A stretch of 64,000 bases of DNA. Source: Acuticoccus sp. I52.16.1. Lineage in GTDB: Bacteria; Pseudomonadota; Alphaproteobacteria; Rhizobiales; Amorphaceae. The notes below the pieces were generated by a model, which saw only the letters and a list, made by a program, of their open reading frames with translations, had not been told where the DNA came from and did no database searches. Position numbers and translations under genes: made by a program. Below, in pieces: positions 17,415 through 37,771 of this stretch. The DNA is taken from contig NZ_CP094828.1 in assembly GCF_022865125.1 (NCBI RefSeq), positions 2,783,219 to 2,847,218 on the forward strand, given 5' to 3'. The first letter of the stretch is position 1, and the number at the start of each line of letters is the position of its first letter.

Positions 17415-18647
17415 TCAGCCGGCGAGGCGGCGAGCGTGGGCGGCGGCGATCAGCGCGGCGTGGCTCCAGGTGAGGTTGCGGCAGGACCGCGGGGCACCGG
17501 TGGCTCCGTCGATCTGCTCGGGCAAGGCGCCGGCGGTGGGGCGGGCGGCGCGGACCGCCTCCAGGATGGCCTCGCCGCGCGCGCGGCAGCGGCGGCGCTC
17601 GGCGGCGTCGAGGTTCACGCCGGCGGCACGGCGGTAGTAGAACTCGGCGAACCCGAGGCTCGTCGGCAACCAGGGCTGACCGTCGAAATAGACGTCGCCC
17701 TCCCAGCGGCCGACGAGGGGGGCCGCGTCCGTCGCCAGCGCGAACCGCGCGCGGGACCAGCGCTCGACGTCCTCGGCGGTCGCCGCCATGGCCGGCTCGG
17801 TGACGCCGAATCGTCCGGCGGGGTCGAGGAGCGCGCCGAGGATGATATCGGCGTCGCTGCCGTCGGTCGCACTCGACGCGGCGAAGCGGCCGGCCGTGCG
17901 CAGGTCCCCCATCGCGGTGTCGATCCGCGCCACCGCCTCCGCCACGCCGGCCGCCGCCAGCCGCGGGCCGGCGGCGCACAGCGCGGCGCGCTGGGCGAGC
18001 ATCGTGAAGGCGTGGCGTGCGGGCGGCGGGTCCTCCCATGGGCCGATGCAGGGCGCGGCGGCGTGCGCCAGCACATGGGCGAGGTCGATCGCGAGGAGCC
18101 GTTCCGTTTCGGCCGTCGCGGCGCCGGGCCAGGCGAGGCAGGAGAGCGCCCGCAGCGCCGGCCCGTCGTACTGCGGCCTGCCCCACTCCTCGAAGTCGGC
18201 GGTGCCGTCGGCGTTGACGCGCGGCTCGGCCGGCACGGCGTCACCCGCCAGCGCGGTGAGCTCGGCGTCGGGGCGCAGGAAGCGCGCATGGGCGGCGTCG
18301 GTCGTCGCACGCTGCGGGTTGGCGGGCGGCCCGGCGCGCGTCGCGATCGCGAGGCTGAAGGTGACATAGTCGGCGAAGCGGCGGTCCCAGGCGGCCGGAT
18401 CCTGCGGGTGCAGCAGTGCCGCCGCCAGCATGACGACGCCGGCGTCGCGCGGCCAGTGGTAGAAGTAGTCCGGCTCCGGATCCCAATGCGCGTCTTCCGG
18501 CGAGGCGAGGATGGAGCCGGCCGCCGGCACCACCACATGGCCGAAGCCGGGCCGCCGGTGGGTCAGGTGCGTGGCCGATATCGCCGCGGCGATCGCGTCG
18601 GCCGATGCGGCCGCCTGCGCGGCGAGCCAGTCGTCGAGCGGGGACAT
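17415..18647 (-). CDS. Glycoside hydrolase family 15-like (glucoamylase-type) protein
   Basis: 410 residues from ATG 18647, which overlaps the preceding hydrolase stop by one base (TGATG). The (alpha/alpha)6 toroid signatures of GH15 are visible: DYFYHWPRDAGVVM near the N-terminus, EEWGRPQYDGPALRALS in the middle, GPWEDPP as the likely catalytic-acid segment, and PEQIDGATGAPRSCRNLTWSHAAL near the end. GH15 enzymes release glucose from the ends of alpha-glucans. It has no signal peptide and no starch-binding domain, so it probably acts in the cytoplasm. Its link to the neighbouring OpgD gene is unclear. Confidence 0.82.
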   Translation of the reverse strand: MSPLDDWLAAQAAASADAIAAAISATHLTHRRPGFGHVVVPAAGSILASPEDAHWDPEPDYFYHWPRDAGVVMLAAALLHPQDPAAWDRRFADYVTFSLAIATRAGPPANPQRATTDAAHARFLRPDAELTALAGDAVPAEPRVNADGTADFEEWGRPQYDGPALRALSCLAWPGAATAETERLLAIDLAHVLAHAAAPCIGPWEDPPPARHAFTMLAQRAALCAAGPRLAAAGVAEAVARIDTAMGDLRTAGRFAASSATDGSDADIILGALLDPAGRFGVTEPAMAATAEDVERWSRARFALATDAAPLVGRWEGDVYFDGQPWLPTSLGFAEFYYRRAAGVNLDAAERRRCRARGEAILEAVRAARPTAGALPEQIDGATGAPRSCRNLTWSHAALIAAAHARRLAG

Positions 18648-19417
18648 CAGCCGGCTTCGAGGATGCGATCGAACGCGGTGCCGGTGCTCGCCGCATATCC
18701 GGGGCCGAGGGGGCAGTGATGCTCGCCCATGACCACGTCGTGCCACACGCAGCGGCCGAGTGCGGCGGCGAGGGCCGCGGCGTGGGCCGGCGGCGTCACC
18801 GTGTCGTCGACGCCGACGATGACGGCCGAGGGGACGCGGACCGCGCCCGCGACGGCCAGCGCATCGTGGGCCGGCCACTCGTCGAGCGCGCGGGGGAGCT
18901 CACGGCGCAGCATGGCCACCGCCTCCGGCCCCTGCGCCTCGCGTGCGGCGATGAGCGCCGCGCCGGAGATCACCGGCGAGACCGCGACGACCCCCGTCGG
19001 TCCCCACCGATGCCCGTCCGCCGCCAGCCGCACCACCGCATAGCCGCCCATCGAGTGGCCGACCAGGATGCGGGCCGCACCGCCGGGCGCCGCGTCGACC
19101 GCATAGTCGGCGACGGTGGCGAGATCGGCGTAGTGGTCGGCCATGGTGAACGTCTCGGCGGTGCCGGCACTGAGGTTGTGGGCCGAGTGGCAAAGGTCCG
19201 GCGCGATCACCGTGAGGCCGCGCGCCACCGCCGCGGCGATCAGCGGCACCATGTGCGGCGCGTCCGCGGCGCCGTTGCGGCCGTGCGCGATGATCGCCGT
19301 CCCTCGCGGCGTCCCGCCGGGGCGGTGCAGGTGCACGCGCATCGGCCCGGCGCTGCCGGCAAGCGTGACCTCCTCGGCCGGCCGCAGATCGTCGGGCGGT
19401 GCGGCACCGGTCTGCAC
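18647..19417 (-). CDS. Alpha/beta hydrolase
   Basis: 256 residues from a GTG start at 19417 behind GAGG. A complete catalytic triad is visible: the nucleophile Ser in VGHSMGGYA (about residue 125), an Asp in VGVDDTVTPP, and a His in GEHHCPLGP. AHGRNG is the oxyanion-hole strand. The general type is a dienelactone-hydrolase or chlorophyllase-like serine esterase; the substrate is unknown. It is sandwiched between opgD and the GH15 gene on one strand, so removal of an ester decoration from a glucan is possible but untested. Confidence 0.8.
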   Translation of the reverse strand: MQTGAAPPDDLRPAEEVTLAGSAGPMRVHLHRPGGTPRGTAIIAHGRNGAADAPHMVPLIAAAVARGLTVIAPDLCHSAHNLSAGTAETFTMADHYADLATVADYAVDAAPGGAARILVGHSMGGYAVVRLAADGHRWGPTGVVAVSPVISGAALIAAREAQGPEAVAMLRRELPRALDEWPAHDALAVAGAVRVPSAVIVGVDDTVTPPAHAAALAAALGRCVWHDVVMGEHHCPLGPGYAASTGTAFDRILEAG

Positions 19418-19477
19418 CTCAGCCTCGCATGGCGCCGGCGGTCCGGCGGGCGACCGGCATGCCCGCCGCCCGCCCCA

Positions 19478-21049
19478 TCACGAGCGCGACCGCGTGATCA
19501 TGCGGTCCGGCAACATCTGGCCGATCCAGGTTTCGCTGAGCGCCTCGCCGTCCTTCTGCAGATACGCCCGCACCTCGACCGGTTCGTCGCCCTCCGGCTC
19601 GAAGTCGAAGGCGAGGCGCCAGTAGGGGGTGCCGACGATCGGCCAGGCCGCCGCCTCGGTGACGACCTTGCCGCGCGCCAGGGTGACCACCGCCTGCACG
19701 TCGCCGCGTTTCAGGCCGTCCAGCACCTCGCCCTCGAAGTCGATCACCATCTTGTCGGCGTTGGGGATGGCGTCCTGGCCGGGCGCGCCGGCGAGTCCCT
19801 GCCGCGTCGAGACCACGGTGGCGACCACCGGTACCGGGTCGCGGTCGATCCAGTGCAGTCGGTAGTCGAAGGTCAGCTCCGTCCCCTCGCCGCCGCGGTT
19901 GGCCGGGGCCCAATAGGCGACGATGTTGTCCTTCGTCTCGTCGTCGGTCGGCAGCTCGACGAGCTGCACCGCGCCCTGGCCCCAGTCGCCGATCGGCTCC
20001 ACCCACACGCTGGAGCGGCGGTCGTAGAAGACGCCGTCGTCCTGGTAGTGCAGGAACTCGCGGTCGCGCTGGATCAGGCCGAACCCCTTGGGATTGGTGT
20101 CAGTGAACGAGGACGTGCGCGGGATCGTCGGGTTGTTCAGCGGGCGCCACAGCCGCTCGCCGCCCCCCGTCGCCAGCGCAAGGCCGTCGCTGTCGTGGAT
20201 CTCGGGCCGCCAGTCGGTGCCGAAGCGCTCGTCGCGCTCTGAATACCAGTACATGCTGGTGAGCGGCGCGATGCCGAGCCGCTCCACCTGCCGGCGGAAG
20301 AAGAGGTGCGCCGATACGGTCGTCCAGTGCCCGCCGTCCGGGGCGTCGCGGCGCAGGCCGAACTTGTACGCGCCGGTGACCGAGCGGCTCTCCAGCAGCG
20401 CATACACCGTGAGGTCGTCCCCCTCCGCCTCGGGCGCGGCGAGGTAGAAGTGGGAGAACCGTGGGAACTCCTCGGGCCGCGAGAGGCCGGTGTCGATCGC
20501 GAGGCCGCGGGCAGAGATGCCATATTGGGCGAACGGTCCGTCCGTGCGGAAGTAGGACGCGCCGAGGAAGGACACCCAATCCGGCTTCAGCCCCGGCCGC
20601 ATCACACGGAAGCCGGCAAAGCCGATGTTGTGCGGCAGCTCCTGGGCGGGGCTGTCGTCCGGCATGTCGAAGTAGGACTTGGAGTAGAGGATCTCCCGCG
20701 CTTCGACCCCGTCGACCACGGCGACGTGCACCGGTTCGCGGAAATAGCGGCCCTGGTGGAAGAGCTGCACCTCGGCGTTGGTGCCGGGCGGGTTGAAGGT
20801 GGCGTCGTCGCGATAGCGGATCTTCCAGTGCGCGTCGTAGTCGATCCGCTCGAGGACGTCGGGCGCGATGATGTGCGGCGGCTCGTAGGCGGAGCCGGCC
20901 ATCTCGCGCGCCCGCTCGATCAGATCGTCGAAACGAAACGTCCGGGGCTCGCCCAGCTTCAGCGCATCGCTGCTCTGAGCCGAAACCCTGAGCGGGAAGG
21001 CGCCCATCAGGGCGATCGATCCTGCAACCACTGCCCGACGTGTCGGCAT
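19478..21049 (-). CDS. opgD: Periplasmic glucan biosynthesis protein, OpgD/MdoD type
   Basis: 523 residues of the MdoG/OpgG family, which shapes osmoregulated periplasmic glucans; E. coli members are now known as beta-1,2-glucan-cleaving GH186 enzymes. MPTRRAVVAGSIALMGAF is a twin-arginine signal, as in OpgD rather than Sec-exported OpgG. Domain hallmarks include LYSKSYFDMP, GASYFRTDG, YGISARGLAIDTG and HYQDDGVFYDRRSSVWVEP. ATG 21049 was chosen for its AAGAAGG site; an N-terminal extension runs into cobW. No opgH glucosyltransferase is beside it. Confidence 0.9.
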   Translation of the reverse strand: MPTRRAVVAGSIALMGAFPLRVSAQSSDALKLGEPRTFRFDDLIERAREMAGSAYEPPHIIAPDVLERIDYDAHWKIRYRDDATFNPPGTNAEVQLFHQGRYFREPVHVAVVDGVEAREILYSKSYFDMPDDSPAQELPHNIGFAGFRVMRPGLKPDWVSFLGASYFRTDGPFAQYGISARGLAIDTGLSRPEEFPRFSHFYLAAPEAEGDDLTVYALLESRSVTGAYKFGLRRDAPDGGHWTTVSAHLFFRRQVERLGIAPLTSMYWYSERDERFGTDWRPEIHDSDGLALATGGGERLWRPLNNPTIPRTSSFTDTNPKGFGLIQRDREFLHYQDDGVFYDRRSSVWVEPIGDWGQGAVQLVELPTDDETKDNIVAYWAPANRGGEGTELTFDYRLHWIDRDPVPVVATVVSTRQGLAGAPGQDAIPNADKMVIDFEGEVLDGLKRGDVQAVVTLARGKVVTEAAAWPIVGTPYWRLAFDFEPEGDEPVEVRAYLQKDGEALSETWIGQMLPDRMITRSRS

Positions 21050-22214: not shown

Positions 22215-22309
22215 GGGGGGCGACCGCGGCCGCCCTCACCTCAGTACCCAAAAGCGGCCGCGCTGCACAACGGTCCGCGACGCCGGGCCGGGCCGGGTCG
22301 GGGCGCCCC

Positions 22310-22645
22310 TCAGTGCATGCGCGCTGCGAGGTCCGTCAGGATCCAGATCGTGCCGCCGCCCATCAACGCCAGCAGCAGCACCGTGAACAGGATGAGTTGC
22401 AGGTCCTCCCGCTTCTGGCGCGACAGGTCGACGTGCAGGAAGAAGCGCATGTGGACGACGATCTGTACCAGCGCGGCGATGCCGACGAGCACGAGGCTGG
22501 CCCCGCGCGGCAGGATGCCGGTGAATGCGAGGATGAACGGCGGCACGGTCAGCGCCACGGCGAGCACGAAGCCGACGATGTAGAGCCGCGTGTCGTGCGC
22601 GCGCTGGCGGGCCAGGTCGTCGCGGTCGTTCTTGGTCGCGTTCAT
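22310..22645 (-). CDS. cyoD: Cytochrome bo3 ubiquinol oxidase subunit IV
   Basis: 111 residues with three membrane helices; MRFFLHVD is the subunit IV signature. ATG at 22645 overlaps the cyoC stop as ATGA. It assists assembly of the CuB site in subunit I. The usual next gene, cyoE for heme O synthesis, is absent; a CobW GTPase gene follows instead. Confidence 0.92.
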   Translation of the reverse strand: MNATKNDRDDLARQRAHDTRLYIVGFVLAVALTVPPFILAFTGILPRGASLVLVGIAALVQIVVHMRFFLHVDLSRQKREDLQLILFTVLLLALMGGGTIWILTDLAARMH

Positions 22646-25358: not shown

Positions 25359-26448
25359 CGTGCGTGTCCGAGTGCATGGCGTGCGCGCCGGCACGGTGGG
25401 GGGTGCAGGTGGCCGCGTCGGGCGCGCCGGCTCCCGCTGCCGCGGCGTCGAAGGTGGGGCTGCCGGGCTGGAGCTGCGGCGTCACCGCCTCGCCAGAGTG
25501 GTAGCGCGCCATCACGCAGTCGAACAGACCGCTGGTCCGTAGCCGGAAGTTCACCGGGCCCTCGCCCTCCAGTCCGAGGTCGCCGCGCATGTCGCTCAGG
25601 ATGCTGGGCTTGGAGAGCGTGGTGTAGGTCGCAGCCTCGAGCGGTGTCCCCAGCGTGCGCGCGGCGTCGACCCATGCATCGAACCCGCCTTCGGGCAGGG
25701 CGCGTACGGTGAAGCGCTGGTGCGGGAAGCCGTCGCCGCTGTACTGCGAGTTCTGGCCGCGCGTCTCGCCCGGCTCGGTGGCGCGCATGTTCAACTCGGT
25801 GCGCATGCCGGGCATGGCGTAGATCTGCCCGGCGAGCGCGGGGATCCAGAAGCTCTGCATCACCGTGTCGGTGGTGATGCGCAGGGTCACCGGCCGCCCC
25901 GCCGGCACCACGAACTCACCCACGCTGGCGACCTGCTGCTCGGGGTAGATGAAGAGCCACTTCCAGTCGAGGCCGATGACGTCGACCTGTAGCGGGTCGG
26001 GGCCGAGCCGGTCGTACGGGTTCAGCCGCTGCGTGGCGACGATCAGCGCGGTGGCGAGCGCGACGACGACGAGGATCGGCACGCCCCACATCGCCACCTC
26101 GAGCCAGCGGTTGAACTCCCAGTTCGGCGTGTAGGCGCGGACCGATCCCTCGCGGCGGCGGTAGAACCACATGACGAACGGCGTCAGCAGAAGCACCGGC
26201 AGGATCGGCAGCAGGATGATGAGGGTCGCGATATAGAAGTGGTTGCGCTGGCGGGCGGCGATCTCGCCCAGCGGCACGAGGAAACTCTCTCCTGCGACCG
26301 CGGGACCGGCGAGGAGCCCCGCTGCGAGGCCGGCGACGATCAGGACCGGCAACGCTGTGGAACGGGCGCGTCGGCGGTCTGGCCCGGCGGGTGGTGTCAG
26401 CCCTCTGGCGGCGCTGCAGGAGGAGCGGCGTCGGTGGCGGTGGCTCAT
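25351..26448 (-). CDS. cyoA: Cytochrome bo3 ubiquinol oxidase subunit II
   Basis: 365 residues. An N-terminal signal/anchor and two membrane helices (about 70-92 and 113-135) precede a periplasmic cupredoxin domain containing DWKWLFIYPEQ and QSFWIPALAGQIYAMPGM. The CuA cysteines of cytochrome c oxidases are missing (SQYSGDGFPHQ), which marks a quinol oxidase. No lipobox cysteine is seen after the signal, unlike E. coli CyoA. The start has GAGGG seven bases upstream. First gene of cyoABCD; its promoter must lie in 26449-26659, where I saw no clear consensus or ANR/FNR site. Confidence 0.94.
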   Translation of the reverse strand: MSHRHRRRSSCSAARGLTPPAGPDRRRARSTALPVLIVAGLAAGLLAGPAVAGESFLVPLGEIAARQRNHFYIATLIILLPILPVLLLTPFVMWFYRRREGSVRAYTPNWEFNRWLEVAMWGVPILVVVALATALIVATQRLNPYDRLGPDPLQVDVIGLDWKWLFIYPEQQVASVGEFVVPAGRPVTLRITTDTVMQSFWIPALAGQIYAMPGMRTELNMRATEPGETRGQNSQYSGDGFPHQRFTVRALPEGGFDAWVDAARTLGTPLEAATYTTLSKPSILSDMRGDLGLEGEGPVNFRLRTSGLFDCVMARYHSGEAVTPQLQPGSPTFDAAAAGAGAPDAATCTPHRAGAHAMHSDTHDG

Positions 26449-26659: not shown

Positions 26660-27937
26660 TTACGCGACAGGCAGCCGCGGGCTGCGGAAGCCGAGCCGGG
26701 CGAGGCCGGTCCGCACCTCCGGCACCGCCATGAAAAGGTCCCAGATCAGCCCGCTTCGGTGGTTCTCGAGCATGATCACGATAGGACCCTGGTCGATCGC
26801 CAACGATCCGGGCGCGACCCAATCGCCGCCCGGCTCGAACGCGTCGGCGAGGCCGTAGGGGCCCCAAAGCGTCTCGCCCCGGTCGTCGACGAAGTGGCGC
26901 AGCGCCGCCATCGCCTCTACCGGCACGAACGGCATCGAGGCGACCGCCCCCGTCGGCGTGACGACGCCGATGTCGTTGGTGGGCGAATGGGCCGCGTAGC
27001 CGACCGTGCTGTCGGAGGCGGTGAGGCCCCAGCAGGCCGGCCCGTACCCTGCGAAGCCGCCCGGATTGGCGATGCAGTGAGCGCGGTTCACCAGCGCATG
27101 CGCGCGCACCTGCTCGCCGTAGTCGGCATAGTCGTCGGCGAGGCCGCGCGGGTCGAGCCCCAGGAAGGAGTAGTGGGCGAGGAAGAGGGGGCCGCCCAGC
27201 TCCGGCCCCAGCGGCAGGCGGATACCGTGGTAGTCGCGGCCGTTGCGAAACTCCTCCGCCTTCGCCCAGGACCGGTGGTAGATCGCCGGGTCGATCGGAT
27301 GCGTCGGCGAGCCGGCCGCCAGGACGAAGGTGATCAGGCTCTCGTTCCAGCCGCGGATCGGCAGGCTCTTGTCGGTCCACGGGTGGCGGTCGCTGCGGTG
27401 CCACATCAGCCCGTGGTCGCCGGGGTGCTCCAGCTCGCGGACATGGGCGGTCCAATCCGCCGCCTCCCACAGCCGCGTGACCGGGCCGGTGATATCCGCC
27501 CGATCGGCGAAGGCCTGCCGCGCGGTGAGGAGGCCGGCCATCAGGAACGACGTCTCGACGAGGTCGCCGCCGTCGTCGGTGGGCGAGAAGGGGACCGTGG
27601 CGCCGGTGCTGCCGTCGAGGAAATGGGGGAAGATGCCGTGGTGTGTCTCGGCCTGCTCCAGGAAGGCGGCGATCCGGGCGATGCGGCCGGCGACCGCGTC
27701 CCGCTCCAACCACCCGCGGGCGGCGCCGACGACGAGGGCCATGACGCCGAACCCACTGCCCCCCGACGTCACGATCCGGTTGGTGTCGTAGCCGAATGCG
27801 CCGGCGCTGCGTTCCCGCGCCATGCCGCTGTCGGGATGGGCGAAATCCCAGAAGTAGGCGAGGGCGGCGCGCGCCGTCGCGTCCCGCAACGCATCGTCGG
27901 AGAGGCCCTTGGCGGGGCGGCCGGGGTTGAGGTCCAT
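26660..27937 (-). CDS. Glycoamylase-like (GH144-type, beta-1,2-glucanase family) protein
   Basis: 425 residues of the glycoamylase-like domain family, whose studied members (GH144) are endo-beta-1,2-glucanases. The (alpha/alpha)6 fold motifs are clear: AYFWDFAHPDSGMARER at the N-terminus, GSGFGVMAL, GGDLVETSFLMAGLL, GWNESLITFVLAAGSPTHPI and YGPACWGLTASDS, then GPYGLADAF. No signal peptide is present, so it should act in the cytoplasm on imported oligosaccharides, unlike the secreted characterised enzymes. It lies downstream of a GH3 gene and a sugar ABC importer on the same strand. Substrate by family only. Confidence 0.82.
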   Translation of the reverse strand: MDLNPGRPAKGLSDDALRDATARAALAYFWDFAHPDSGMARERSAGAFGYDTNRIVTSGGSGFGVMALVVGAARGWLERDAVAGRIARIAAFLEQAETHHGIFPHFLDGSTGATVPFSPTDDGGDLVETSFLMAGLLTARQAFADRADITGPVTRLWEAADWTAHVRELEHPGDHGLMWHRSDRHPWTDKSLPIRGWNESLITFVLAAGSPTHPIDPAIYHRSWAKAEEFRNGRDYHGIRLPLGPELGGPLFLAHYSFLGLDPRGLADDYADYGEQVRAHALVNRAHCIANPGGFAGYGPACWGLTASDSTVGYAAHSPTNDIGVVTPTGAVASMPFVPVEAMAALRHFVDDRGETLWGPYGLADAFEPGGDWVAPGSLAIDQGPIVIMLENHRSGLIWDLFMAVPEVRTGLARLGFRSPRLPVA

Positions 27938-28027
27938 CTACGGGTTCCGCTTTGACGAGGGGGCGGCGAGGAAGTGCTCGGCTTCACCGGAAATCAGGGG
28001 CTCGGGACGCGTCCCCAAGGCGGAGGG

Positions 28028-30292
28028 TCAGGCGCTCCAGACGATCTCGATGCTTTGCAGGTCGCGAGAGTTGGGGCCGACGCCGAGGACGAACGTCCCC
28101 GGGTCCCAGACCCACGCGACCGAGGTCATCGTCTCGCCCATGGCGTAGGCGAGGTCGCGGCGGGTGAGGCGGAAGGCGACGTCGCGTGCCTCGCCCGGCG
28201 CCAGGGTGATCTTCTCGAAGCCCTTCAGCTCGCGGATCGGCCGTGTGATCCGCGCCACCGGGTCCGAGACGTAGAGCTGCACCACCTCGGTGCCCGGCCG
28301 GGGTCCGGTGTTGGTCACGGTGACGCGCACGACCGCCTCGGCGTCGGGGCCCGACAGCCGGGCGGCGTCGACTCGCGGCGCGCCGTAGCCGAACGACGTG
28401 TAGGAGAGGCCGAAGCCGAAGGGGAAGAGGCCGGTCGCCGGATGGATCGAGTCCGGCAGGTCGAGGTAGCCGGTCTTGAACTTCTCGAACCGGCCCGGAT
28501 AGGGGCGGCCGGTCGGTTCCGCCTGGCTGAACACCGGAACCTGCCCGGTGCGCGCCGGAAAGGCGCTCGCCAACCGGCCGGACGGGTCGGCCTTGCCGGT
28601 CAGCAAGTCGGCGATGCCGTGGCCGGCCTCGGTGCCGGCGAACCATACGTAGAGCACCGCGTCCGCGAGGCCGATCTCCTCTTCCAGCGCAAGCGGGCGA
28701 CCGGCCTTCACCACCAGCACCAGCGGCGTTCCCGTCGCGGCGAGCGCGCGGATCAACACCCGTTGCGGTTCGGGCAGCGCAAGGTCGGTCACCGAGGAAC
28801 ACTCGCCGGACGCCTCCTTCGCTTCCCCCACCACGGCGACGGTGACGTCGGCCGCCTCGGCGGCGTGGACGGCCTCGGTCAGCATGGCCTCGGCGCTGCG
28901 GGGGTCGAGGAACACGGTCTGGCCGTGCACGTTGAGCCGCGCGGCGAGAATCTCGTCGTCGACGATGTCGGCACCCTTCACGCAGGTGATGGGACCGTCG
29001 TAGCTCGCGTGCAGGCCCTCCAGCAGCGTCACCGCCTGGCGATGGTCGCCGGAGACGGCCCAGGTGCCGAGGAGGTTGGTCTGGTCGTCGGCGATGGCGC
29101 CGACCATCGCGATGCGCTTGCCCGGCGCCAGCGGCAGGATGCCGTCATTCTTCAAGAGCACCGAGCTCTCGGCGATGGCCCCGCGGGCGACGCGGCGGTG
29201 TGCCGGGGCGAGGGGGAAACGGGCCGCCCGCTCCTCGTCGCAGTAGCGGAACGGGTCGTCGAACAGGCCGATGCGGTGCTTCAGCGCCAGCACGCGCCCG
29301 CACGCCTCGTCGATCGCGGCGCGGATGTCGTCTGCCGGGATGGCGATGCCGCTTTCGGGGCGGCTGAGGCCCTCCTCGGCGAGCCTGGGGAGGTGGTCGA
29401 GGTAGTCCTCGCCGATCATGTCCATGTCGATCCCGGCGATCAGCGCCAGGCCCGCCACCGTCTCGCGGTCGCCCAGGCCGTGGGCGGCCAGCTCCATGAT
29501 GCCGGTATAGTCGGCGACCATCAGCCCGTCGAAGCCGGCCGTGCCGCGCAGCCAGCCGCGGATGAGGTCGCGGTGGGCGTGCATCGGCCGCTTGTTGAGC
29601 GCATTGAAGGCGCCCATGATCGACCCCGCCCCCGCTGCGACACCGGCGCGGAAGGGCTCGGCATAGACGCCGATCGCCTCCTCCGGCGAGAGGTTGGCGT
29701 TGTCGTAATCGCGTCCGCCGACCGCGGCGCCGTAGGCGAGGAAATGCTTCAGGCACGACACCACCGTGTCGGGCGCGGTGGGGTCGTCCCCCTCGAAGCC
29801 CTTGACCATCGCCTCGGCGTAGCGGGCGGCGAGGAAGGGGTCCTCGCCCGGGCTCTCGGCGATGCGGCCCCAGCGCGGGTCCCGCGCGATGTCGATCATC
29901 GGGGCGTAGACGTGGTTGATCCCCTCGGCCGCCGCCTCGGTCGCGGCGACGCGGGCGACGTCGTGCCAGAGCTGCGGGTTGAAGGCGCAGCCGAGCGCGA
30001 CGGGCAGGGGGAAGATCGTGCGGTGGCCGTGGATCACGTCCTCGGCGAAGAAGAGCGGGATGCCGTGACGCGAGCCCGCGACCGCGATCTCCTGCCACGC
30101 CCGCACCGAGCGGACCGACTTGGTGCCGAAGAGACCGCCGAGCCGGCCGCTCTTCAGACGGTCCTCGATGTTGCGGACGGCGGGACTGCCGGTCTCCGGT
30201 CCCTCGCCGGCGCTGAGGAGATTGAGCTGGCCGATCTTCTCGGCCAGCGTCATCCGCTGCAGCAGGGCAGCGACGAAGTCGTTGTCGGACAT
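28028..30292 (-). CDS. GH3 beta-glucosidase (BglX-like), cytoplasmic
   Basis: 754 residues with the three GH3 parts: an N-terminal TIM barrel (about 10-330), an alpha/beta sandwich (about 370-600) and a fibronectin-III-like C-terminus (about 660-745). The nucleophile Asp is in GLMVADYTGIMELAAHG, in place of the usual SDW, and the acid/base Glu is probably in EAKEASGECSS. KHFLAYG and GEDPFLAARY are standard substrate-pocket motifs. There is no signal peptide, whereas BglX is periplasmic. It starts 18 bases after the ABC gene and precedes the GH144-type gene, consistent with cleaving short beta-glucans to glucose. Confidence 0.9.
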   Translation of the reverse strand: MSDNDFVAALLQRMTLAEKIGQLNLLSAGEGPETGSPAVRNIEDRLKSGRLGGLFGTKSVRSVRAWQEIAVAGSRHGIPLFFAEDVIHGHRTIFPLPVALGCAFNPQLWHDVARVAATEAAAEGINHVYAPMIDIARDPRWGRIAESPGEDPFLAARYAEAMVKGFEGDDPTAPDTVVSCLKHFLAYGAAVGGRDYDNANLSPEEAIGVYAEPFRAGVAAGAGSIMGAFNALNKRPMHAHRDLIRGWLRGTAGFDGLMVADYTGIMELAAHGLGDRETVAGLALIAGIDMDMIGEDYLDHLPRLAEEGLSRPESGIAIPADDIRAAIDEACGRVLALKHRIGLFDDPFRYCDEERAARFPLAPAHRRVARGAIAESSVLLKNDGILPLAPGKRIAMVGAIADDQTNLLGTWAVSGDHRQAVTLLEGLHASYDGPITCVKGADIVDDEILAARLNVHGQTVFLDPRSAEAMLTEAVHAAEAADVTVAVVGEAKEASGECSSVTDLALPEPQRVLIRALAATGTPLVLVVKAGRPLALEEEIGLADAVLYVWFAGTEAGHGIADLLTGKADPSGRLASAFPARTGQVPVFSQAEPTGRPYPGRFEKFKTGYLDLPDSIHPATGLFPFGFGLSYTSFGYGAPRVDAARLSGPDAEAVVRVTVTNTGPRPGTEVVQLYVSDPVARITRPIRELKGFEKITLAPGEARDVAFRLTRRDLAYAMGETMTSVAWVWDPGTFVLGVGPNSRDLQSIEIVWSA

Positions 30293-30310
30293 GGGATCTT
30301 TCGCGTGGCC

Positions 30311-32524
30311 CTATTCGGCGGCGATCTGATCGACCACCTTCGCCGGCTGACCTAGTGCGTGGATGTCCGCGATGCCATCCTCGATGTAGAGAATGTTGTC
30401 GTAGAAGGTCTTGCCGCCGGGCGCGACGGGGGGCTCCGGCGTGTGCATGATCGATATGACGATCGCCTTGGGGCAATGGTCCGCGATCAGGCGGTGGAAC
30501 TCCAGGGTGGCGAGCGGGTCGAGCGCGGCGCACGCCTCGTCGAGCAGCAGCACGTCCGGCTGCTGCAGGATGATGCGTGCCAGCACCAGACGCTGACGCT
30601 GACCGCCGGAGAACACGTTGTTCCAGGGCTTGCCGTGGTGCAGGTCGTCGTCGACGTCGGCGATGAACTTGCCGAGCCCGACCTCCGACAGCGCCGCGGC
30701 GATCTGAAGATCCGTGAAGCGGCCGCCGAAATCGGGGTAGCAGATCAGCTCGCGCAGGGTGAGGCGCGTCGGCAGGTCCGGATCCTGTCCGGCGAAGAAC
30801 ATCCGCGCGCCCTCGGGGTGGACGATGTCGCCCGAGCCGTAGGGCCACAGGCCGGCGATCGCCTTCATCAGGCTCGACTTGCCGCTGCCGTTCTGCCCGC
30901 GCACATACGCCCACTGGCCCGGGCGGATGTTGATGTGCGGCACGGTCAGGAACGGCTCGGCGTCCTTGCCGCGGTGGCGCAGCTCGACGTTCTTCAGCGT
31001 CAAGCCGAAGCGGGGGTTCTGCACCGGGTGGCGGAACGCGTTGACGCCGGTCTGGCTGTAGAAGGCCTGCCGATCGCTGGCGGCCTCGATGGCGTTGGCG
31101 ACTTCGGTCAGTCGCACGGCGTTGGCCTTCAGCGTGGCGATCGCGGGCATCACCTGGATGAACCAGGAGCAGTCCTCGATCAGCTCGGCCGCCAGCTCCG
31201 ACGTCGCCGAGTAGGCGCGGAAGGTGAGGGCCCCGGAGAGGTAGCCCGGCAGCGCCGGCAGGTAGGAAACCAGCCGCTTGGACAGGAAGTTGTAGCTGTT
31301 GGTGAACATCATGAACCCGGCTTGGGTGATGTTCATCCGGTGCCACACCTCGTCGATCCCGGCGTAGAGCTTGCCGTTGGTCTGCTGCTGCACGCGCTGT
31401 CCGCCGGAGATGGCGAGCTGGTTCGACCGGCTGAGCATCTCGTTCAGCTCGCCGCGCCAGGTGCCGTCGCGCGACTGACGCTCCAGCGTCTGCCGCTCCA
31501 GCACGCGGCCCAGCAGCCAGGCGCAGAAGGTGCCGAAGGGGACGTAGAGGGCGATGACGATCGCGACCAGCAGCGCCGAGCCGTAGGCGCCGGGCGAGAA
31601 TGTGAGAGCGGCGCCGACCGCGGGACCGAAGGCGTCCGTCGCGGCGGCGCCGGCGGCGGCGAACCAGCGCTCCAGAAACGGGACTTCGACCGAGCGGGCG
31701 ATGATCGCCGACGACACGAAGTAGATCGACGTCACCGACCCCCAGATGCCCATGGCGAGGCCGATGATGCCGCCGAACATGTTGTTGGTGCACTCGTCGA
31801 CGCGCTGGTCGACGTTGTCGGGCATGCGGCCGACGGCATTGGGCCCGGCGTCGCGGTTCGACATCAGGCTCATCGCGATGTGGTTCTGGCCCAGCATCGC
31901 GGCGGAGAACTGGCCTTGCGTCCACCCGCGCGCCTTGCGGTGCAGCGTGGCGGAGACGAAGTGGCGGAACCCGATCGCGCCGTAACGGGCGAGGTAGATG
32001 CCCGCGAACGCGGCGACCGACGCCATCAGGATCGCGACGGGGTCGACCCCCTCGCTCGGCGCGTGGAACGAGACGATGGAGTTGAGAAAGTCCGCGCTGG
32101 AGGTCGCCGCCCACACCGAGGACTTGGAGATGAGCGTCGTGATGGCGAACACCGCGAAGGTGAGCGACCACGCCTCGACCCAACGCTCGGAGGTCCAGTA
32201 GGCGGAGAGCAGGCCCCAGAAGCCGCGCATGCCCGACACCGGCGTCGCGCCCCGGCGGCGGAGCGGCGCGTGCAGCCGCGGGTGGGTGCGGCCGAGGGTG
32301 TAGACCACCGGCAGGGCGGCGAGGCCCACGCCCCAGGTCAGCGTGAACGCGGGGCCGGCCCAGCGCGACAGGAGCGCGAGCGTCTCGGCCAGCAGGCCGG
32401 TCGCGTCGAGCAGCAAGAGGTCGAGTGTCAGCGCGAGCGTGCCGGCGGCGAGGATCGCCACCAGGACACTTTGCCTACTACTCCGGTTCCTAGCCCAGAT
32501 AGACGGACGAACCTTCATCGCCAT
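30311..32524 (-). CDS. BacA/YddA-type ABC transporter, fused membrane and ATPase domains
   Basis: About 737 residues from ATG 32524 (AGGG upstream; TTG 32539 also possible). An extended N-terminus with two extra hydrophobic segments precedes an SbmA/BacA-like membrane domain (about 120-480), with NRDAGPNAVGRMPDNVDQRVDEC as its core. The ATPase follows: Walker A GQNGSGKSS (about 543-551), signature FSGGQRQRL and Walker B VLLLDEACAALD. Relatives import peptides or cobalamin, or flip lipids. The gene is 18 bases from the GH3 gene, so a role in oligosaccharide or peptide movement is possible. Not a NdvA-type glucan exporter by membrane-domain sequence. Confidence 0.85.
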   Translation of the reverse strand: MAMKVRPSIWARNRSSRQSVLVAILAAGTLALTLDLLLLDATGLLAETLALLSRWAGPAFTLTWGVGLAALPVVYTLGRTHPRLHAPLRRRGATPVSGMRGFWGLLSAYWTSERWVEAWSLTFAVFAITTLISKSSVWAATSSADFLNSIVSFHAPSEGVDPVAILMASVAAFAGIYLARYGAIGFRHFVSATLHRKARGWTQGQFSAAMLGQNHIAMSLMSNRDAGPNAVGRMPDNVDQRVDECTNNMFGGIIGLAMGIWGSVTSIYFVSSAIIARSVEVPFLERWFAAAGAAATDAFGPAVGAALTFSPGAYGSALLVAIVIALYVPFGTFCAWLLGRVLERQTLERQSRDGTWRGELNEMLSRSNQLAISGGQRVQQQTNGKLYAGIDEVWHRMNITQAGFMMFTNSYNFLSKRLVSYLPALPGYLSGALTFRAYSATSELAAELIEDCSWFIQVMPAIATLKANAVRLTEVANAIEAASDRQAFYSQTGVNAFRHPVQNPRFGLTLKNVELRHRGKDAEPFLTVPHINIRPGQWAYVRGQNGSGKSSLMKAIAGLWPYGSGDIVHPEGARMFFAGQDPDLPTRLTLRELICYPDFGGRFTDLQIAAALSEVGLGKFIADVDDDLHHGKPWNNVFSGGQRQRLVLARIILQQPDVLLLDEACAALDPLATLEFHRLIADHCPKAIVISIMHTPEPPVAPGGKTFYDNILYIEDGIADIHALGQPAKVVDQIAAE

Positions 32525-32919
32525 CCAGCCCTGTTTCAACTGCGCACTCGTCGGGCCGCGCGGTGTGACCCAGCCTTAGCCTAGGCGATGATGCTGGGCC
32601 GATCGTCTCCGACGCCTTAAGGCTGCCCTTATGACGCCCAGAATGCGACAGCGCCGCCACGTAGGAAAGCTTTGCCGAATATGGGGGCGGTGTTTTTAGG
32701 GAACTGTGTTTCAAATCACACGAGTGCGACCGCCGCTCCACAACCCGTCCCCCCTTAAACGCGGGAGTGGTTAAAAAAATTATGTCCTTGGCACTGCTGT
32801 GCTATTTGGCCGCGAACACGGGATCGTGCACCAGTCTTCCGGATTGCCGAAAATGTCCACAGGGGCAGCTTTTAGGCAGCGAATGGAACGTTCGCCCCAT
32901 CGGCGAGCGCACGCGATTG

Positions 32920-32936
32920 CGCGATTCCGAATCGCG
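32920..32936. promoter_or_regulatory. Palindrome in the spacer upstream of the ABC-GH3-GH144 genes
   Basis: CGCGATTC, one C, then GAATCGCG: eight-base arms, exactly inverted. A partial third copy (GCGATT) lies eight bases to the left, so three related half-sites are clustered. The form suits a dimeric sugar-responsive repressor such as a LacI-type protein, though no regulator gene lies nearby. The GATTC and GAATC also make two GANTC methylation sites. Confidence 0.4.
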
Positions 32937-33024
32937 TATCAATTGTGGAAGCGCGATGTTCAATAAGGCAGGCTGTCAAAAAAGGCGCTCGGTGACGCCG
33001 CCGCATGGCGCCCGTGCCTCATTT

Positions 33025-33051
33025 CACGCGGCTGGTATAATCGGCCGCGTG
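33025..33051 (-). terminator. Hairpin after the second sugar permease gene
   Basis: CACGCGGC and GCCGCGTG pair around an 11-base loop, 15 bases beyond the permease stop at 33066. It lacks a T-tract on the minus strand (GAAATGAGG follows). It probably ends or stabilises the importer transcript, which would make the downstream ABC-GH3-GH144 genes a separate unit. Confidence 0.45.
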
Positions 33052-33065
33052 AGAGGTTCGATGAT

Positions 33066-34037
33066 CTAACGCGACGTAATTTTCTGTCGTCCGTAGATCA
33101 GCAGCATCGCGATGATCACAGTGCCGTAGATGATCTGGCGATAGGCCTCGTCCATCTGCATCACGTTGAGCACGCTCTGTAGCAGAACGATCAGAACGAC
33201 GCCGATCACCGTGCCGGAATATCGGCCCTGGCCGCCTAGGATCGTCGTCCCACCCAGCACGACGGCGGCGATCGAGGGCAGCAGATACTGGTCGCCCATG
33301 GCCTGGAAGGCGCGTGCCGAGTAGCCGGCGAGCGACATACCGCCGATCACCGCGCACAGCGAGCACATCAGGAACGCCGCCATGATGACGAGGCGCGTTT
33401 TCACCCCCGAGAGGTAGGCCGCCGCCTCCTGATTGCCGATCGCGTACATGTAGCGGCCGAGCGCCGTGCGCGTCAGCACGAACACCAGCGCCAGCGACAC
33501 CAGAAGCCACAACACCACCGAATGCGGCACCCCGAAGGTGCGGTCGGCGCCGAGGAAGACCATCACGTCCGTCGCCGCGCTCTGCGGCGCGTGCCCGCCG
33601 GTCAGCATCACCATCAGGCCGAGGAGGACGGTGTTCATGCCGAGCGTGAAGATCATCGACGGCACGCGCAGGAAAGCGACTCCGAAGCCGTTGACGAGCC
33701 CCACCGCAACCCCCAGCGCCAAGCCGGCGAGGTCGCCCGTCACGCCGCCGATGGCGGTGGCGATCATCGCGCCGGAGGTCATCGTCCAGGGGACCGAGAG
33801 GTCGATGTGGCCGAGGAGGATGACCATCATCATGCCCGCCGCCGTGATGCCGAGGAAGGCGCCGGAATGGAGCTGCAGGACCAAGTAGTTGGGCGACAGG
33901 AAGGTCGCCGTCCCTTGCGTGTGCAGCGTGTAGGCGGTGCCGACCGCCAGGATCAGCACGATGAACGTGAGGCCGATGACGATCGGCAGGTCGAGCCGGA
34001 AGGCGGGGCGCCGGGACGGCACGGACGGAGAGGTCAT
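33066..34037 (-). CDS. Sugar ABC transporter permease, RbsC type (second copy)
   Basis: 323 residues, about eight to ten hydrophobic segments, of the BPD_transp_2 ribose/xylose/galactose permease family. GHIDLSVPWTM and the closing AAVVLGGTTILGGQGRYSGTVIGV are the family signatures. It pairs with the permease ten bases upstream to form a heterodimeric channel, an arrangement typical when two distinct RbsC-like genes are adjacent. The substrate is unknown; genes on either side suggest a saccharide. Confidence 0.9.
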   Translation of the reverse strand: MTSPSVPSRRPAFRLDLPIVIGLTFIVLILAVGTAYTLHTQGTATFLSPNYLVLQLHSGAFLGITAAGMMMVILLGHIDLSVPWTMTSGAMIATAIGGVTGDLAGLALGVAVGLVNGFGVAFLRVPSMIFTLGMNTVLLGLMVMLTGGHAPQSAATDVMVFLGADRTFGVPHSVVLWLLVSLALVFVLTRTALGRYMYAIGNQEAAAYLSGVKTRLVIMAAFLMCSLCAVIGGMSLAGYSARAFQAMGDQYLLPSIAAVVLGGTTILGGQGRYSGTVIGVVLIVLLQSVLNVMQMDEAYRQIIYGTVIIAMLLIYGRQKITSR

Positions 34038-34047
34038 GGTGCGGTCC

Positions 34048-35094
34048 TCAGGTAAACAGCGACAGGCGGTTCTTCACGCGCAGCACGCGCGCCGCCCCGA
34101 GACTCACGGCCAGCAGCAGGATCAGCCCCTCGAACAGCGGCTGCAGCAGCGGGTCGGCGACGAAGCCGACCGCCGCCCCCTCCGGGATCACGCGGAAGAT
34201 GAACGTGATGGAGCGCAACACCAGCGCACCGAAGATGGTGCCGATCACGCCCCCGGTCCCGCCGTAGAGCGAAGTGCCGCCGATGACGACCGCCGCGATG
34301 GAGCGCAGCGTGTACTCGGCCGCCTGCGGCGCGTCGGCGTTGCCCGAGCCCATCTGCAGGGTGAGGTAGACGCCCGCGCAGCCGGCGAAGAAGCCGCCCA
34401 GCGTGAACGCGGCGATCTTCGAGCGGTCGACGTTCAAGCCGGACATGTAGGCCGCCTGCTCGTTGGAGCCGACCGCGTAGCAGCCGCGCCCCAGCACCGT
34501 GGCGCGGAACGGCAGCCAGACGAGGACGATGATCGCGGTGAGGAAGATCGCCTGCATGGGGAGGAGTCCCAGCGGCCCCAGGTCCTCCCACCAGCCGAAC
34601 GTGAAGCCCAGCTCGTTGATGTCGTTGGTGAAGGCCCAGGCGATGTCCGCGTTGACGGCGCCGCCCGGCGTCGGCCGTAGGATCAGCGCCGCGCCGAGGT
34701 AGATGGCGCCGGTCGCCAAGGTCGCGATGATCGGCTGGATGCGACCGTAGACGATCACGCAGCCGTTCATGAACCCGGCCGCCGCGCCGAGCGCCAGCGC
34801 GCCGACGACGCCGGCCAGCACCGACCCGCCGCTCCCCGCCATCACCACCGAGCCGAAGCAGTTGGTGAACGTCATCAGCGGACCGACCGACAGGTCGAGC
34901 CCGCCGACCAGCACCGCCATCGTCTGCGCCATTCCGACGAAGATCAGCGCCATCGTCTCGTTGGCGTTCTGCAGGACGACGTTGACGCCCCAGTTGGGGT
35001 GCATCACCGCATAGGTGCCGTAGATCACCGCGAACAGCGCGATCGCCAGAAGGATCCCGGCATTGTAACGCACGAACCGATTGAGTGCGCTCAT
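34048..35094 (-). CDS. Sugar ABC transporter permease, RbsC type (first copy)
   Basis: 348 residues of the same family. VGGLDLSVGPLMTFTN and AVVIGGTSLYGGTGGVIGTI are the conserved blocks. ATG 35094 overlaps the ATPase stop (ATGA), so translation is coupled. It is about 25 residues longer than its partner, with the additional residues in the central periplasmic loop (about 140-170). Confidence 0.9.
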   Translation of the reverse strand: MSALNRFVRYNAGILLAIALFAVIYGTYAVMHPNWGVNVVLQNANETMALIFVGMAQTMAVLVGGLDLSVGPLMTFTNCFGSVVMAGSGGSVLAGVVGALALGAAAGFMNGCVIVYGRIQPIIATLATGAIYLGAALILRPTPGGAVNADIAWAFTNDINELGFTFGWWEDLGPLGLLPMQAIFLTAIIVLVWLPFRATVLGRGCYAVGSNEQAAYMSGLNVDRSKIAAFTLGGFFAGCAGVYLTLQMGSGNADAPQAAEYTLRSIAAVVIGGTSLYGGTGGVIGTIFGALVLRSITFIFRVIPEGAAVGFVADPLLQPLFEGLILLLAVSLGAARVLRVKNRLSLFT

Positions 35095-36632
35095 GCGGCG
35101 TCGGCCTTCAGGTTGAGGGCGGCGGAGACGATGTTGGTCTCGGTGATCGCATCGCCCGCCAGCTCGCTGACGACGCGGCCCTCGTACATGACGAGCACGC
35201 GGTCGCAGCAGCCGATCAGCTCGGCATAGTCGGTGGTGTAGAGGACGACCGCGGCACCCTCGTCGGCGAGCCGGCGCAAGAGGGCGTAGATCTCCTCCTT
35301 GGTGCCGACGTCGATGCCGCGGGTCGGGTCGTTGAGGAGGATGATGCGCGGGTGCGTCAGCAGCCACTTGGCGATGACGACCTTCTGCTGGTTGCCGCCC
35401 GAGAGCGTCGCGACCGGCGCGGCGAGGTCGCCCACCTTGATCTGCATCTCCTTGACCATGCGGGCGATGTTGTCCGCCTCCGCGGCCCGGTCGATGACGA
35501 CGCCCTTGGTGACGGCGCCGAGGGAGGCGGCGGTGATGTTCTCGCCGACGCTCATCGGCAGCATCAGCCCCTCGGTCTTGCGGTCCTCCGGGATGAGCGC
35601 CATGCCGACCTCGGGCCGCTTGGCGTCGGCGGGCGAGTTGATGCGCCGCGCCTTGCCGTCGACCTTCACCGTGCCGCCGACGGAGGCGAGGACGCCGAAG
35701 AGCGCCAGCAGAAGCTCGCGCTGGCCCTGCCCGTCGAGCCCGCCGATGCCGACGATCTCGCCCTTGCCCACCGTCAGCGAGACGCCGTGGAGGGTCGGCG
35801 CGAAGGTGAGGTTCTCGGCCTCGAGGACCGGCTCGGGCGGGGCGCTGCGGACCGGCTTGGCGGGGAAGACGTTCGCCCACTCGCGCCCGATCATCATCTG
35901 CACGATCGCATCGTCCGAGTGGGCGCCCTTGGCGAAGGTGTCGACCCGCCGGCCGTTGCGGAAGACCGAGAGCGTATCGGCCAGCTCTTCGATCTCGTGC
36001 ATGCGGTGGGAGATGTAGAGGAGGGCGAGCCCGTCCGCCCGCAGCTTGTGCAGGATCTCGTACACCTTCTCGACGTCCGCGGCCGTCAGCGCCGAGGTCG
36101 CCTCGTCGAGGATGAGGAGCGTCGGGTCGCGCCCCAGCGCCTTGGCGATCTCCACCATCTGCCGGCGCGACAGGGCGAGGTCGCGGATGCGGGTCGCGGG
36201 GTCGATGTCCTCGCAGCCGACGCGGGCGAGCAGTTCCTCGGCGCGCCGGCGCTGGGCGCGGCGGTCGATCAGGCCGAGCCGGGTGCGTGGCGGCGCGGTG
36301 AGGTAGATGTTGTCGGCCACCGTCAGGTCCGGGACCAGCGACAGCTCCTGGAACATGCACACGACCCCCGCCGCCACCGCCTCCTGCGGGGTGGCGAAGG
36401 CGCGCGTGGCTCCATCGACGACGAGCGTGCCCGTGTCCGGCGTCACCACCCCCGAGGCGATCTTGATCAGGGTGGATTTTCCGGCGCCGTTCTCGCCCAG
36501 AACGGCGTGGATCTCGCCGCGCCGGGCGACGAAGTCCACGTCCGAGAGGGCATGGACGCCGCCGTAGGACTTGGAGATGCCGCGCATCTCCAGGAACGGC
36601 GTCTCCGGCGACGCGGCCGCGGGCTCGCGCAT
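35091..36632 (-). CDS. Sugar ABC transporter ATP-binding protein, RbsA type (two ATPase domains)
   Basis: 513 residues, two tandem nucleotide-binding domains as in RbsA, XylG and MglA. The first half has Walker A GENGAGKST, LILDEATSALT and a degenerate signature LALSRRQMVEIAK. The second half has GGLDGQGQRE in place of Walker A and a canonical LSGGNQQK signature, the usual RbsA asymmetry. Start 36632 (MREPAA) lies 12 bases after the binding-protein stop; GTG 36638 is an alternative. It powers uptake with the two permeases downstream. Confidence 0.92.
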   Translation of the reverse strand: MREPAAASPETPFLEMRGISKSYGGVHALSDVDFVARRGEIHAVLGENGAGKSTLIKIASGVVTPDTGTLVVDGATRAFATPQEAVAAGVVCMFQELSLVPDLTVADNIYLTAPPRTRLGLIDRRAQRRRAEELLARVGCEDIDPATRIRDLALSRRQMVEIAKALGRDPTLLILDEATSALTAADVEKVYEILHKLRADGLALLYISHRMHEIEELADTLSVFRNGRRVDTFAKGAHSDDAIVQMMIGREWANVFPAKPVRSAPPEPVLEAENLTFAPTLHGVSLTVGKGEIVGIGGLDGQGQRELLLALFGVLASVGGTVKVDGKARRINSPADAKRPEVGMALIPEDRKTEGLMLPMSVGENITAASLGAVTKGVVIDRAAEADNIARMVKEMQIKVGDLAAPVATLSGGNQQKVVIAKWLLTHPRIILLNDPTRGIDVGTKEEIYALLRRLADEGAAVVLYTTDYAELIGCCDRVLVMYEGRVVSELAGDAITETNIVSAALNLKADAA

Positions 36633-36643
36633 CGTCACGGGGA

Positions 36644-37771
36644 TCAGGAGTCCTTCTCGGACTCGGCCATGATCTCCGGCGCGGTGATGTTCACGTCGCA
36701 CGGCGGGAACTCGTTCGGCGTGAAGAAGTCGTCCGGCAGGTCGGACCAGTAGTTCACCCCGTCCTCGACCGTCTCGTAGTCCACCGCCGGGATCGGCACC
36801 GAGATGAGCTGCGGCATGACCTTGCCCTGCAGCGCCTCGAGCGCGGCCTTGATGGAGATGGCGACGAGACCGGGCGACTGCCCGTAGGAGAGGCCGACGA
36901 GGCCCTCGTCCGAATGCTCGGCGATCTGCTTGCGGAAGCCGTTCTCGGCCTCGCCGGCGATCGGCACGAACGGGTGGTCGGCGGCCATCATCGCCTGCAC
37001 CGTACCGTTGGTGCCGCCCTGGGAGAACACGCCGTCGAACTGGCCGTGAACCGCGATCGCGTCGGCGGTGACGCGCTGGCTGTCGCCCGGCGCCCAGTTG
37101 CCGACGACCTCGACGATCTCGAAGTTGTTGCCGTCCGCTTCCATGATGGAGCGGAAGCCTTCATGCCGGTCGCGGTCGACCGAGTTGCCCGGAACGCCGC
37201 GCACTTCCAGGATCTTGCCCGAGTTGCCGACGTGCTTGAGCAGCCATTCGGCCGACATCACGCCCATCTCGTACTGGTCCTCGTTGACCTGCATGACGTC
37301 CTTGGAATCGAGGAGGCCATCGAACGGGACGAGCACGACGTCGTTGCGGTTGGCGAGGCGGATGACGCGCTCGAACCCCGTCGGCGAGTTGGCGATCGTG
37401 ATGATCGCGTCGTAGCCCTGGTTGATGAAGTCCTCGATGGCGCCCATCTGCGCCGCCGCGTCGGTGCCGACGGAGACGACCTTCAGATCCTCGACCAGCG
37501 GCGCGATCTCCTCCTGCTCGACGAAGGCCTTGGCGGTCTTGATCATCTGGATACGCCAGATGTTGCCGACGAAGCCGTTGACGACGGCGACCTTGAAGGG
37601 GCCTTCCTTGCCCGGCCATTGGAAATGCTGGGTATTCTCGTCCCAGGCGGCGAAGCACTCGGGCAGGTAGCCCGGCCCGTCGACGGTCTTGGGGCGCGCC
37701 TCGGCCGACGCGGCGGCCAAGACGAGTGCGCTTGCCATCGTGGCGCACGCGATCATCCGATTGAACGGCAT
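36644..37771 (-). CDS. Sugar ABC transporter substrate-binding protein (RbsB-like, type 1 fold)
   Basis: 375 residues. ATG 37771 was chosen because GGAGG lies seven bases upstream. MPFNRMIACATMASALVLA with ASAEA is the signal peptide. The mature protein is a two-lobed periplasmic binding protein of the Peripla_BP_4 group: FKVAVVNGFVGNIWRIQM opens lobe one, and ARG-type ligand contacts are likely in RGVPGNSVDRDRHEGF. A C-terminal stretch of about 35 residues beyond the fold contains one cysteine, and another Cys (PECFAAW) is near the N-terminus, possibly forming a disulfide. First gene of the importer operon; its promoter must lie in 37772-38007. Confidence 0.9.
   Translation of the reverse strand: MPFNRMIACATMASALVLAAASAEARPKTVDGPGYLPECFAAWDENTQHFQWPGKEGPFKVAVVNGFVGNIWRIQMIKTAKAFVEQEEIAPLVEDLKVVSVGTDAAAQMGAIEDFINQGYDAIITIANSPTGFERVIRLANRNDVVLVPFDGLLDSKDVMQVNEDQYEMGVMSAEWLLKHVGNSGKILEVRGVPGNSVDRDRHEGFRSIMEADGNNFEIVEVVGNWAPGDSQRVTADAIAVHGQFDGVFSQGGTNGTVQAMMAADHPFVPIAGEAENGFRKQIAEHSDEGLVGLSYGQSPGLVAISIKAALEALQGKVMPQLISVPIPAVDYETVEDGVNYWSDLPDDFFTPNEFPPCDVNITAPEIMAESEKDS

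Follow-up and report, generated by a model that had tools for sequence, protein, structure and literature searches.

A YddA/BacA-type ABC protein tracks GH144 in a candidate locus for import and cytoplasmic digestion of periplasmic β-1,2-glucan

Most Proteobacteria produce osmoregulated periplasmic glucans, which, according to passages of PMC11842490, often bear succinyl or acetyl groups; the same passages assign to Cereibacter sphaeroides an α-1,6-cyclised β-1,2-glucan of 18 units. We found no description of the removal or reuse of such glucans in open-licence PMC, among the matches listed. The YddA group of ATP-binding cassette (ABC) proteins appears as a family of unknown function in excerpts of a 2026 paper (PMC13316013), where the peptide transporter BclA is nested within the YddA clade and SbmA/BacA are thought to stem from an ancestor of YddA-type ABC proteins. 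PMC10960864 describes inward movement of hydrophilic compounds by mycobacterial BacA, which carries cobalamin in the outward direction as well. Here we analyze a stretch of 64,000 nucleotides from Acuticoccus sp. I52.16.1 (assembly GCF_022865125.1, contig NZ_CP094828.1, positions 2,783,219 to 2,847,218; hereafter the window) in which a YddA/BacA-type ABC protein is encoded beside predicted β-1,2-glucan enzymes. On balance, we lean towards reading this locus as one that breaks down or recycles osmoregulated periplasmic β-1,2-glucan, which would be imported by the ABC protein and digested in the cytoplasm. Coordinates below are positions in the window, and all named genes lie on its minus strand.

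The ABC gene (30311..32521, with ~32521 as an approximate upper limit and an uncertain start codon) stands in a row with genes for a BglX-like glycoside hydrolase family 3 (GH3) β-glucosidase (28028..30292) and a predicted GH144 β-1,2-glucanase (26660..27937). A second half of the locus, which the original prediction for this DNA had missed, consists of genes for a GH15 α-glucosidase (17415..18647) and an α/β hydrolase, a proposed deacylase (18647..19378, start uncertain), and follows the gene for OpgD/MdoG, a GH186 protein (19478..21049). Across ten genomes of the window's family, labelled G000, G001 and so on, ABC orthologs of at least 70% identity and GH3 orthologs of at least 75% occur in exactly the five that carry GH144 (G000, G002, G003, G004 and G007). 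Generic ABC ATPase matches, present in all ten genomes, were left out of this count. The GH3 found in G008 is more distant and comes as two pieces (50% and 38%). The order ABC-GH3-GH144, followed by convergent GH15 and α/β hydrolase genes, recurs in G002, G003 and G004, with OpgD after the GH15-hydrolase pair in G003 and G004. The set is split in G007, where ABC-GH3 lies at one place and GH144-GH15-hydrolase-OpgD at another. The GH144 protein has close relatives in A. yangtzensis (83%) and A. mangrovi (75%). No YddA-type ABC gene was found in 13 control loci from the same family, centred on MdoG or on the ribose-type importer discussed below. In the window, cobW-like and cytochrome oxidase genes (21186-26448) stand between the first half and the second (17415-21049), but in G003 they are found beyond OpgD (L048:5909-11556); local rearrangement explains this difference in place.

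Of the two carriers, the BacA/YddA-type ABC protein follows GH144 from locus to locus, and the ribose-type importer does not. Searching 397 genomes of the order, we obtained matches in 72, and 51 genomes outside the genus had a match at E < 1e-90; stretches of 7 to 20 kb around these were examined with purpose-built profiles. The ABC gene is present in 50 of the 51 clusters. It lies within 150 bases of GH144 in 34 of the 50, and the other 16 all hold GH3, in 15 cases between the two. GH3 accompanies GH144 in 33 of the 51, GH15 in 14 and the hydrolase in 15; in 18 clusters only ABC and GH144 were seen, and a permease-like gene fell within the stretch in 5. The sole cluster that lacks the ABC gene is from Methylobrevis, where GH144 (L017:10001-11220, the same locus as L165) spans two overlapping frames by tblastn and is perhaps a decaying copy.

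The association also appears on plasmids and outside the class. Three Paracoccaceae plasmids, from Paracoccus aminovorans, P. alcaliphilus and Paracoccaceae bacterium La 6, have ABC-GH3-GH144 facing the GH15-hydrolase pair, and in La 6 an MdoG gene adjoins the set. Nine plasmid GH144 loci, examined out of 93 records with a match, held the ABC gene in five cases and GH144 alone in four (L113, L114, L115 and L117). On one plasmid of Sinorhizobium sp. RAC02, a lone GH144 (L114) and a lone window-type ABC gene (L197) lie ~130 kb apart. Beyond Alphaproteobacteria, ABC, GH144, GH15 and GH3 occur together in a Variovorax plasmid (L116) and a gammaproteobacterial metagenome-assembled genome (L015). 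A search of 385 genomes at class level, the window's own included, gave GH144 at E ≤ 1e-60 in two, the window's and G490, and this extra match (L171) stands alone. No other genome of the 385 had a window-type ABC at E ≤ 1e-30, a threshold at which the second ABC branch described below is invisible. A distant PF10091 group (32-39% identity; 19 loci in the remaining 16 of the 72 matched genomes) has a YddA-type ABC at only 2 of 19 loci, with low scores of 172-175 bits. Twelve of the 16 order-level genomes of that group (L172-L190, for example L181:3707-10335 and L186:9278-14950) come from one family.

The window ABC protein is a full-length member of the YddA/BacA (Rv1819c) type. It matches PF06472 (ABC_membrane_2) just over the cut-off (26.1 bits, cut-off 24.4) and also PF00005 (ABC_tran), with no PF05992 (SbmA_BacA) match at E 0.001; it thus has the ABC_membrane_2/SbmA_BacA membrane region fused to an ABC ATPase by which we recognize YddA/BclA-type proteins. 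Among 32 aligned members, PF06472 was found in 31, PF05992 in 22 and PF00005 in 28. The best PDB matches of the ABC profile are 6tqe and 6tqf, which we take to be Rv1819c, the mycobacterial BacA; 6tqe aligns over nearly the full length at E 2.9e-103. In a tree of 48 ABC rows, a very long branch divides the GH144-linked proteins into two groups (midpoint root, with a warning for long-branch effects), and both groups also hold unlinked relatives. That two separate ABC branches are tied to GH144 would be difficult to account for if the carrier did not handle the GH144 substrate.

The enzymes encoded with it have intact catalytic residues. GH144 carries PF10091 (E 4e-70) and aligns over residues 11-423 with 5gzh, an endo-β-1,2-glucanase by its PDB title and presumably CpSGL (E 2e-120), the full-length likeness that, with PF10091, we use to define GH144; it aligns better still with 4gl3 (E 8e-139). 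In window numbering, E199 is present in 88 of 88 aligned rows and D125 and E128 in 68 of 88; we assume that Asp125, Glu128 and Glu199 have catalytic roles in GH144. The 20 rows without D125 and E128 equal in number the places of the distant group, a purely numerical agreement. The GH3 protein has PF00933, PF01915 and PF14310 and scores 663.7 bits against the BglX model, just below the curated cut-off of 666. For GH15, PF00723 (E 4e-24) is accompanied by Glu205 and Glu377, which we take to be the catalytic pair and which define the family for our purposes; both are kept in 25 of 25 proteins, and the best structure match is 3eqa (E 6e-19). The α/β hydrolase (PF12146/PF00561) has a Ser-Asp-His triad, Ser109, Asp192 and His221, kept in 23 of 23.

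These enzymes look cytoplasmic from their N-termini. A stop codon directly precedes the GH144 ATG and another lies 6 codons before the GH3 start, so neither protein can carry a signal peptide; GH15 and the hydrolase of the window also lack one. To the other loci we applied a simple home-made hydrophobicity test, not SignalP, that reads at most 50 residues ahead of the domain. At the order-level loci it flagged 0 of 51 GH144, 0 of 14 GH15 and 0 of 15 hydrolase proteins, and 1 of 35 GH3 proteins, in an over-long frame; in the distant PF10091 group it flagged 1 of 20 frames. Of 15 Bacteroidota GH144 frames, 8 have a domain that begins no more than 40 residues into the frame, and the same test flagged 7 of these 8; the other 7 frames, with longer N-termini, lay outside the test. 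The few flagged N-termini at order level suggest that the proteobacterial GH144, GH3, GH15 and hydrolase proteins work in the cytoplasm.

OpgD/MdoG (PF04349, E 2e-178) is a periplasmic glucan enzyme by prediction. Its best PDB match is 8x18 (411.8 bits), taken here as Xanthomonas OpgD (XccOpgD) because the residue numbers fit PMC11228985. XccOpgD is an α-1,6-cyclised β-1,2-glucohexadecaose synthase, which closes such rings; that article gives conserved Trp76 (or Tyr), Asp343 and Arg477 together as the marks of GH186 clade 3. The window protein has Tyr for Trp76, keeps Asp343 and has Trp for Arg477, and its loop A region lacks GW. With Arg477, one of the three indicator residues, replaced, we did not accept it as a proven α-1,6-cyclase. 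The La 6 MdoG also lacks Asp343.

Where might the glucan come from? The genome contains an operon-like pair of MdoG and family-2 glycosyltransferase genes, which by sequence we read as probably OpgG-OpgH-like. GH144 is the only PF10091 match in this 97% complete genome; with no second PF10091 gene, the genome gave no candidate for a cyclic glucan synthase. Likewise, a PF10091 match within a frame of more than 2,800 residues, the size of a cyclic glucan synthase, occurs in only 3 of the 51 positive genomes. MdoG is present in all 40 GH144 genomes tested (of the 51) versus 18 of 40 genomes without GH144 (Fisher p 8e-9, kinship ignored), the latter being hand-picked and not matched for kinship or completeness. 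These observations favor the cell's own OpgG-type glucan as the source, short of proof.

We infer the direction of transport, the substrate, the specificities of the enzymes, the order of the reactions and the cell's own glucan as source as follows. OpgD would act on glucan in the periplasm. The YddA/BacA-type ABC protein would then import glucan chains or rings at the expense of ATP and with no need of a binding protein, much as mycobacterial BacA moves cobalamin in the account given in sections of PMC10960864. In the cytoplasm, the α/β hydrolase may strip acyl esters, GH144 would cut the β-1,2 backbone and GH3 would trim the pieces to glucose, while GH15 could free glucose held by an α link, such as the α-1,6 closure of some periplasmic glucans. 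A GH15 protein with both glutamates and a hydrolase with a full triad fit the α link and the ester groups. More tentatively, and with less confidence than we place in the locus as a whole, we suggest that GH144-adjoining YddA-type ABC proteins could be dedicated importers of intact periplasmic β-1,2-glucans, rings included, in clusters that recycle the cell's own osmoregulated glucans.

Several observations weigh against import and recycling of periplasmic glucan by this set. We know of no ABC protein of this kind that carries glucans, and an AlphaFold model of the ABC protein, built from four sequences, reached a mean predicted local distance difference test score (pLDDT) of 46.6. From 38 plasmid records that contain a relative of the window-type ABC, we picked ten loci (nine from Rhizobiaceae/Phyllobacteriaceae, one from Azospirillum); none has GH144 beside the ABC gene and one (L199) has a GH3, in a scan of frames of at least 250 residues that could miss a small hydrolase. 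Conversely, GH144 is solitary at L171 and the four plasmid loci named above, and in the Methylobrevis locus (L165) the enzymes are present and the ABC gene is absent. No OpgD match at a 100-bit threshold was found in the 51 order-level stretches. GH3 is absent from 18 of the 51 clusters and GH15 from 37; with GH15 missing so often, a ring with an α link cannot be the general substrate, and the ring reading holds for only part of them. MdoG occurs in four of the five family genomes without GH144, so making glucan does not entail having this locus.

The last point also suits a system that scavenges foreign β-1,2-glucan from the environment and not the cell's own periplasmic glucan. An optional nutrient locus would account for the plasmid location in three Paracoccaceae, for the patchy presence in the genus and for genomes that have MdoG without the locus. 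However, MdoG accompanies GH144 in every positive genome tested and no outer-membrane receptor is annotated in the three Paracoccaceae plasmid stretches; moreover, porins are too narrow for glucan rings of 13-18 units, and we consider scavenging rather unlikely. The ABC protein might instead export glucan or another cargo, with the enzymes acting on glucan made in the cytoplasm. Transport by mycobacterial BacA in both directions (passages of PMC10960864), which itself counts against our assignment of direction, is compatible with export, as is the use of the ABC protein Cgt by producers with a cyclic glucan synthase (passages of PMC10514313). The single PF10091 match in the genome and the rarity of long PF10091 frames among the positive genomes make export improbable in our judgment, and we rejected the version of it in which a cyclic glucan synthase supplies the cargo, for want of a second PF10091 match in the 97% complete genome. 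Finally, the protein could be a peptide or cofactor carrier whose place beside GH144 reflects coincidence or shared regulation. SbmA/BacA and BclA relatives carry peptides (excerpts of PMC13316013), mycobacterial BacA carries cobalamin (parts of PMC10960864) and stand-alone ABC relatives exist; yet the gene is found in 50 of 51 clusters and from two separate ABC branches, and we give this explanation little credence.

The most doubtful of the carriers considered is the neighboring ribose-type importer (33066..37771), made up of a binding protein (36644-37771; PF13407), a double ATPase (35091-36638) and two BPD_transp_2 permeases (34048-35094 and 33066-34037). The original prediction held that this importer takes up β-1,2-gluco-oligosaccharides for digestion by GH144 and GH3, and the shared strand and the adjacency in the window and G003 favor that model. 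Relatives contradict it. Close orthologs of the binding protein (at least 64% identity) occur in 7 of the 10 family genomes (G000, G001, G003, G004, G005, G006 as two fragments, and G007), that is, in four of five with GH144 and three of five without (Fisher p 1). No GH144 match was found in G001, G005 or G006, which have the importer, and no close importer ortholog in G002, which has GH144. The importer adjoins the GH144 cluster only in the window and G003, lies on separate contigs from it in G004 and G007, and is thus elsewhere or missing in three of the five GH144 genomes. None of the 51 order-level stretches holds a binding-protein match of at least 60 bits. A further point against the model comes from G004 and G005, where a TRZ/ATZ-type amidohydrolase gene and taurine-type ABC parts stand divergent to the importer (L052:10895-15215 and L053:5822-8982), a possible clue to its substrate. 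We regard uptake of β-1,2-gluco-oligosaccharides by this importer as very improbable; with a distribution and place independent of GH144, it is most likely an independent cassette outside the glucan system.

The co-conservation of importer and GH144/GH3 expected by the original prediction therefore breaks down in relatives, and with it the ribose-type carrier. The rest of that grouping holds: the named genes are present on the minus strand at about the places it gave, there is no room for signal peptides ahead of GH144 and GH3, and MdoG/OpgD does lie at a distance of 5.6 kb; its N-terminus, read by eye, is of the twin-arginine type. The proposed link to β-1,2-glucan and to OpgD is supported as well and, with two glycosidases that lack signal peptides, points to import before digestion. 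A terminator-like stem-loop (32984..32999) after permease 2, between the importer and ABC-GH3-GH144, would make these separate units, a weak signal given one such stem-loop found and 0.5 expected in shuffles. Scans of the whole window for tRNA and Rfam families found nothing. A TRAP (tripartite ATP-independent periplasmic) permease fusion (DctM + DUF3394) adjoins the importer in the window (38008-40683) and G003 (L047:6235-8910); the same fusion in G007 (L049:3155-5824) is one frame from ABC-GH3, at a place where the importer is missing.

How does the locus compare with described systems? In the sgl/SOGP clusters, uptake is set in Listeria and is followed by cytoplasmic breakdown. These clusters resemble the present one, as we read it, in taking up β-1,2-gluco-oligosaccharides, with a binding subunit in the sgl gene cluster (passages of PMC11842490). 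Uptake of such oligosaccharides by a binding-protein importer is therefore already known; the locus described here differs in lacking a conserved binding protein and in that its GH144 has no signal peptide, and a role for a YddA-type ABC protein would be new and is testable. Among the matches listed in open-licence PMC full text, none dealt with a YddA/BacA-type carrier for β-1,2-glucan, and a term search of PMC12102758, on new β-1,2-glucanase families, met neither cytoplasm nor ABC transporter nor GH3.

Clusters of Bacteroidota likewise place GH144 beside GH3 (L011, L013 and L018), but 7 of the 8 assessable GH144 proteins there have signal peptide-like N-termini, and tblastn with the window ABC found no counterpart at the Bacteroidota loci, where the ABC profile was not run. 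Cyclic glucan export by Cgs and Cgt/NdvA also ties an ABC protein and a PF10091 domain to β-1,2-glucan; that system makes and exports the glucan, whereas no Cgs was found here. XccOpgD, the nearest solved match of the window OpgD, differs in its Arg477, which is Trp in the window. The near-constant pairing of ABC and GH144 in the order would name a substrate class for YddA-type ABC proteins and a fate for the glucan. If borne out, it would provide the first carbohydrate substrate for YddA-type proteins and a carbohydrate importer that works without a binding protein. The closest parallels to the ABC protein itself are the YddA/BclA family and mycobacterial BacA (Rv1819c), type IV ABC transporters that share with it the PF06472/PF05992 region, the fused ATPase and the match to 6tqe. 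Those relatives are known to carry cobalamin and peptides, whereas the window-type ABC is tied to GH144, GH3 and GH15.

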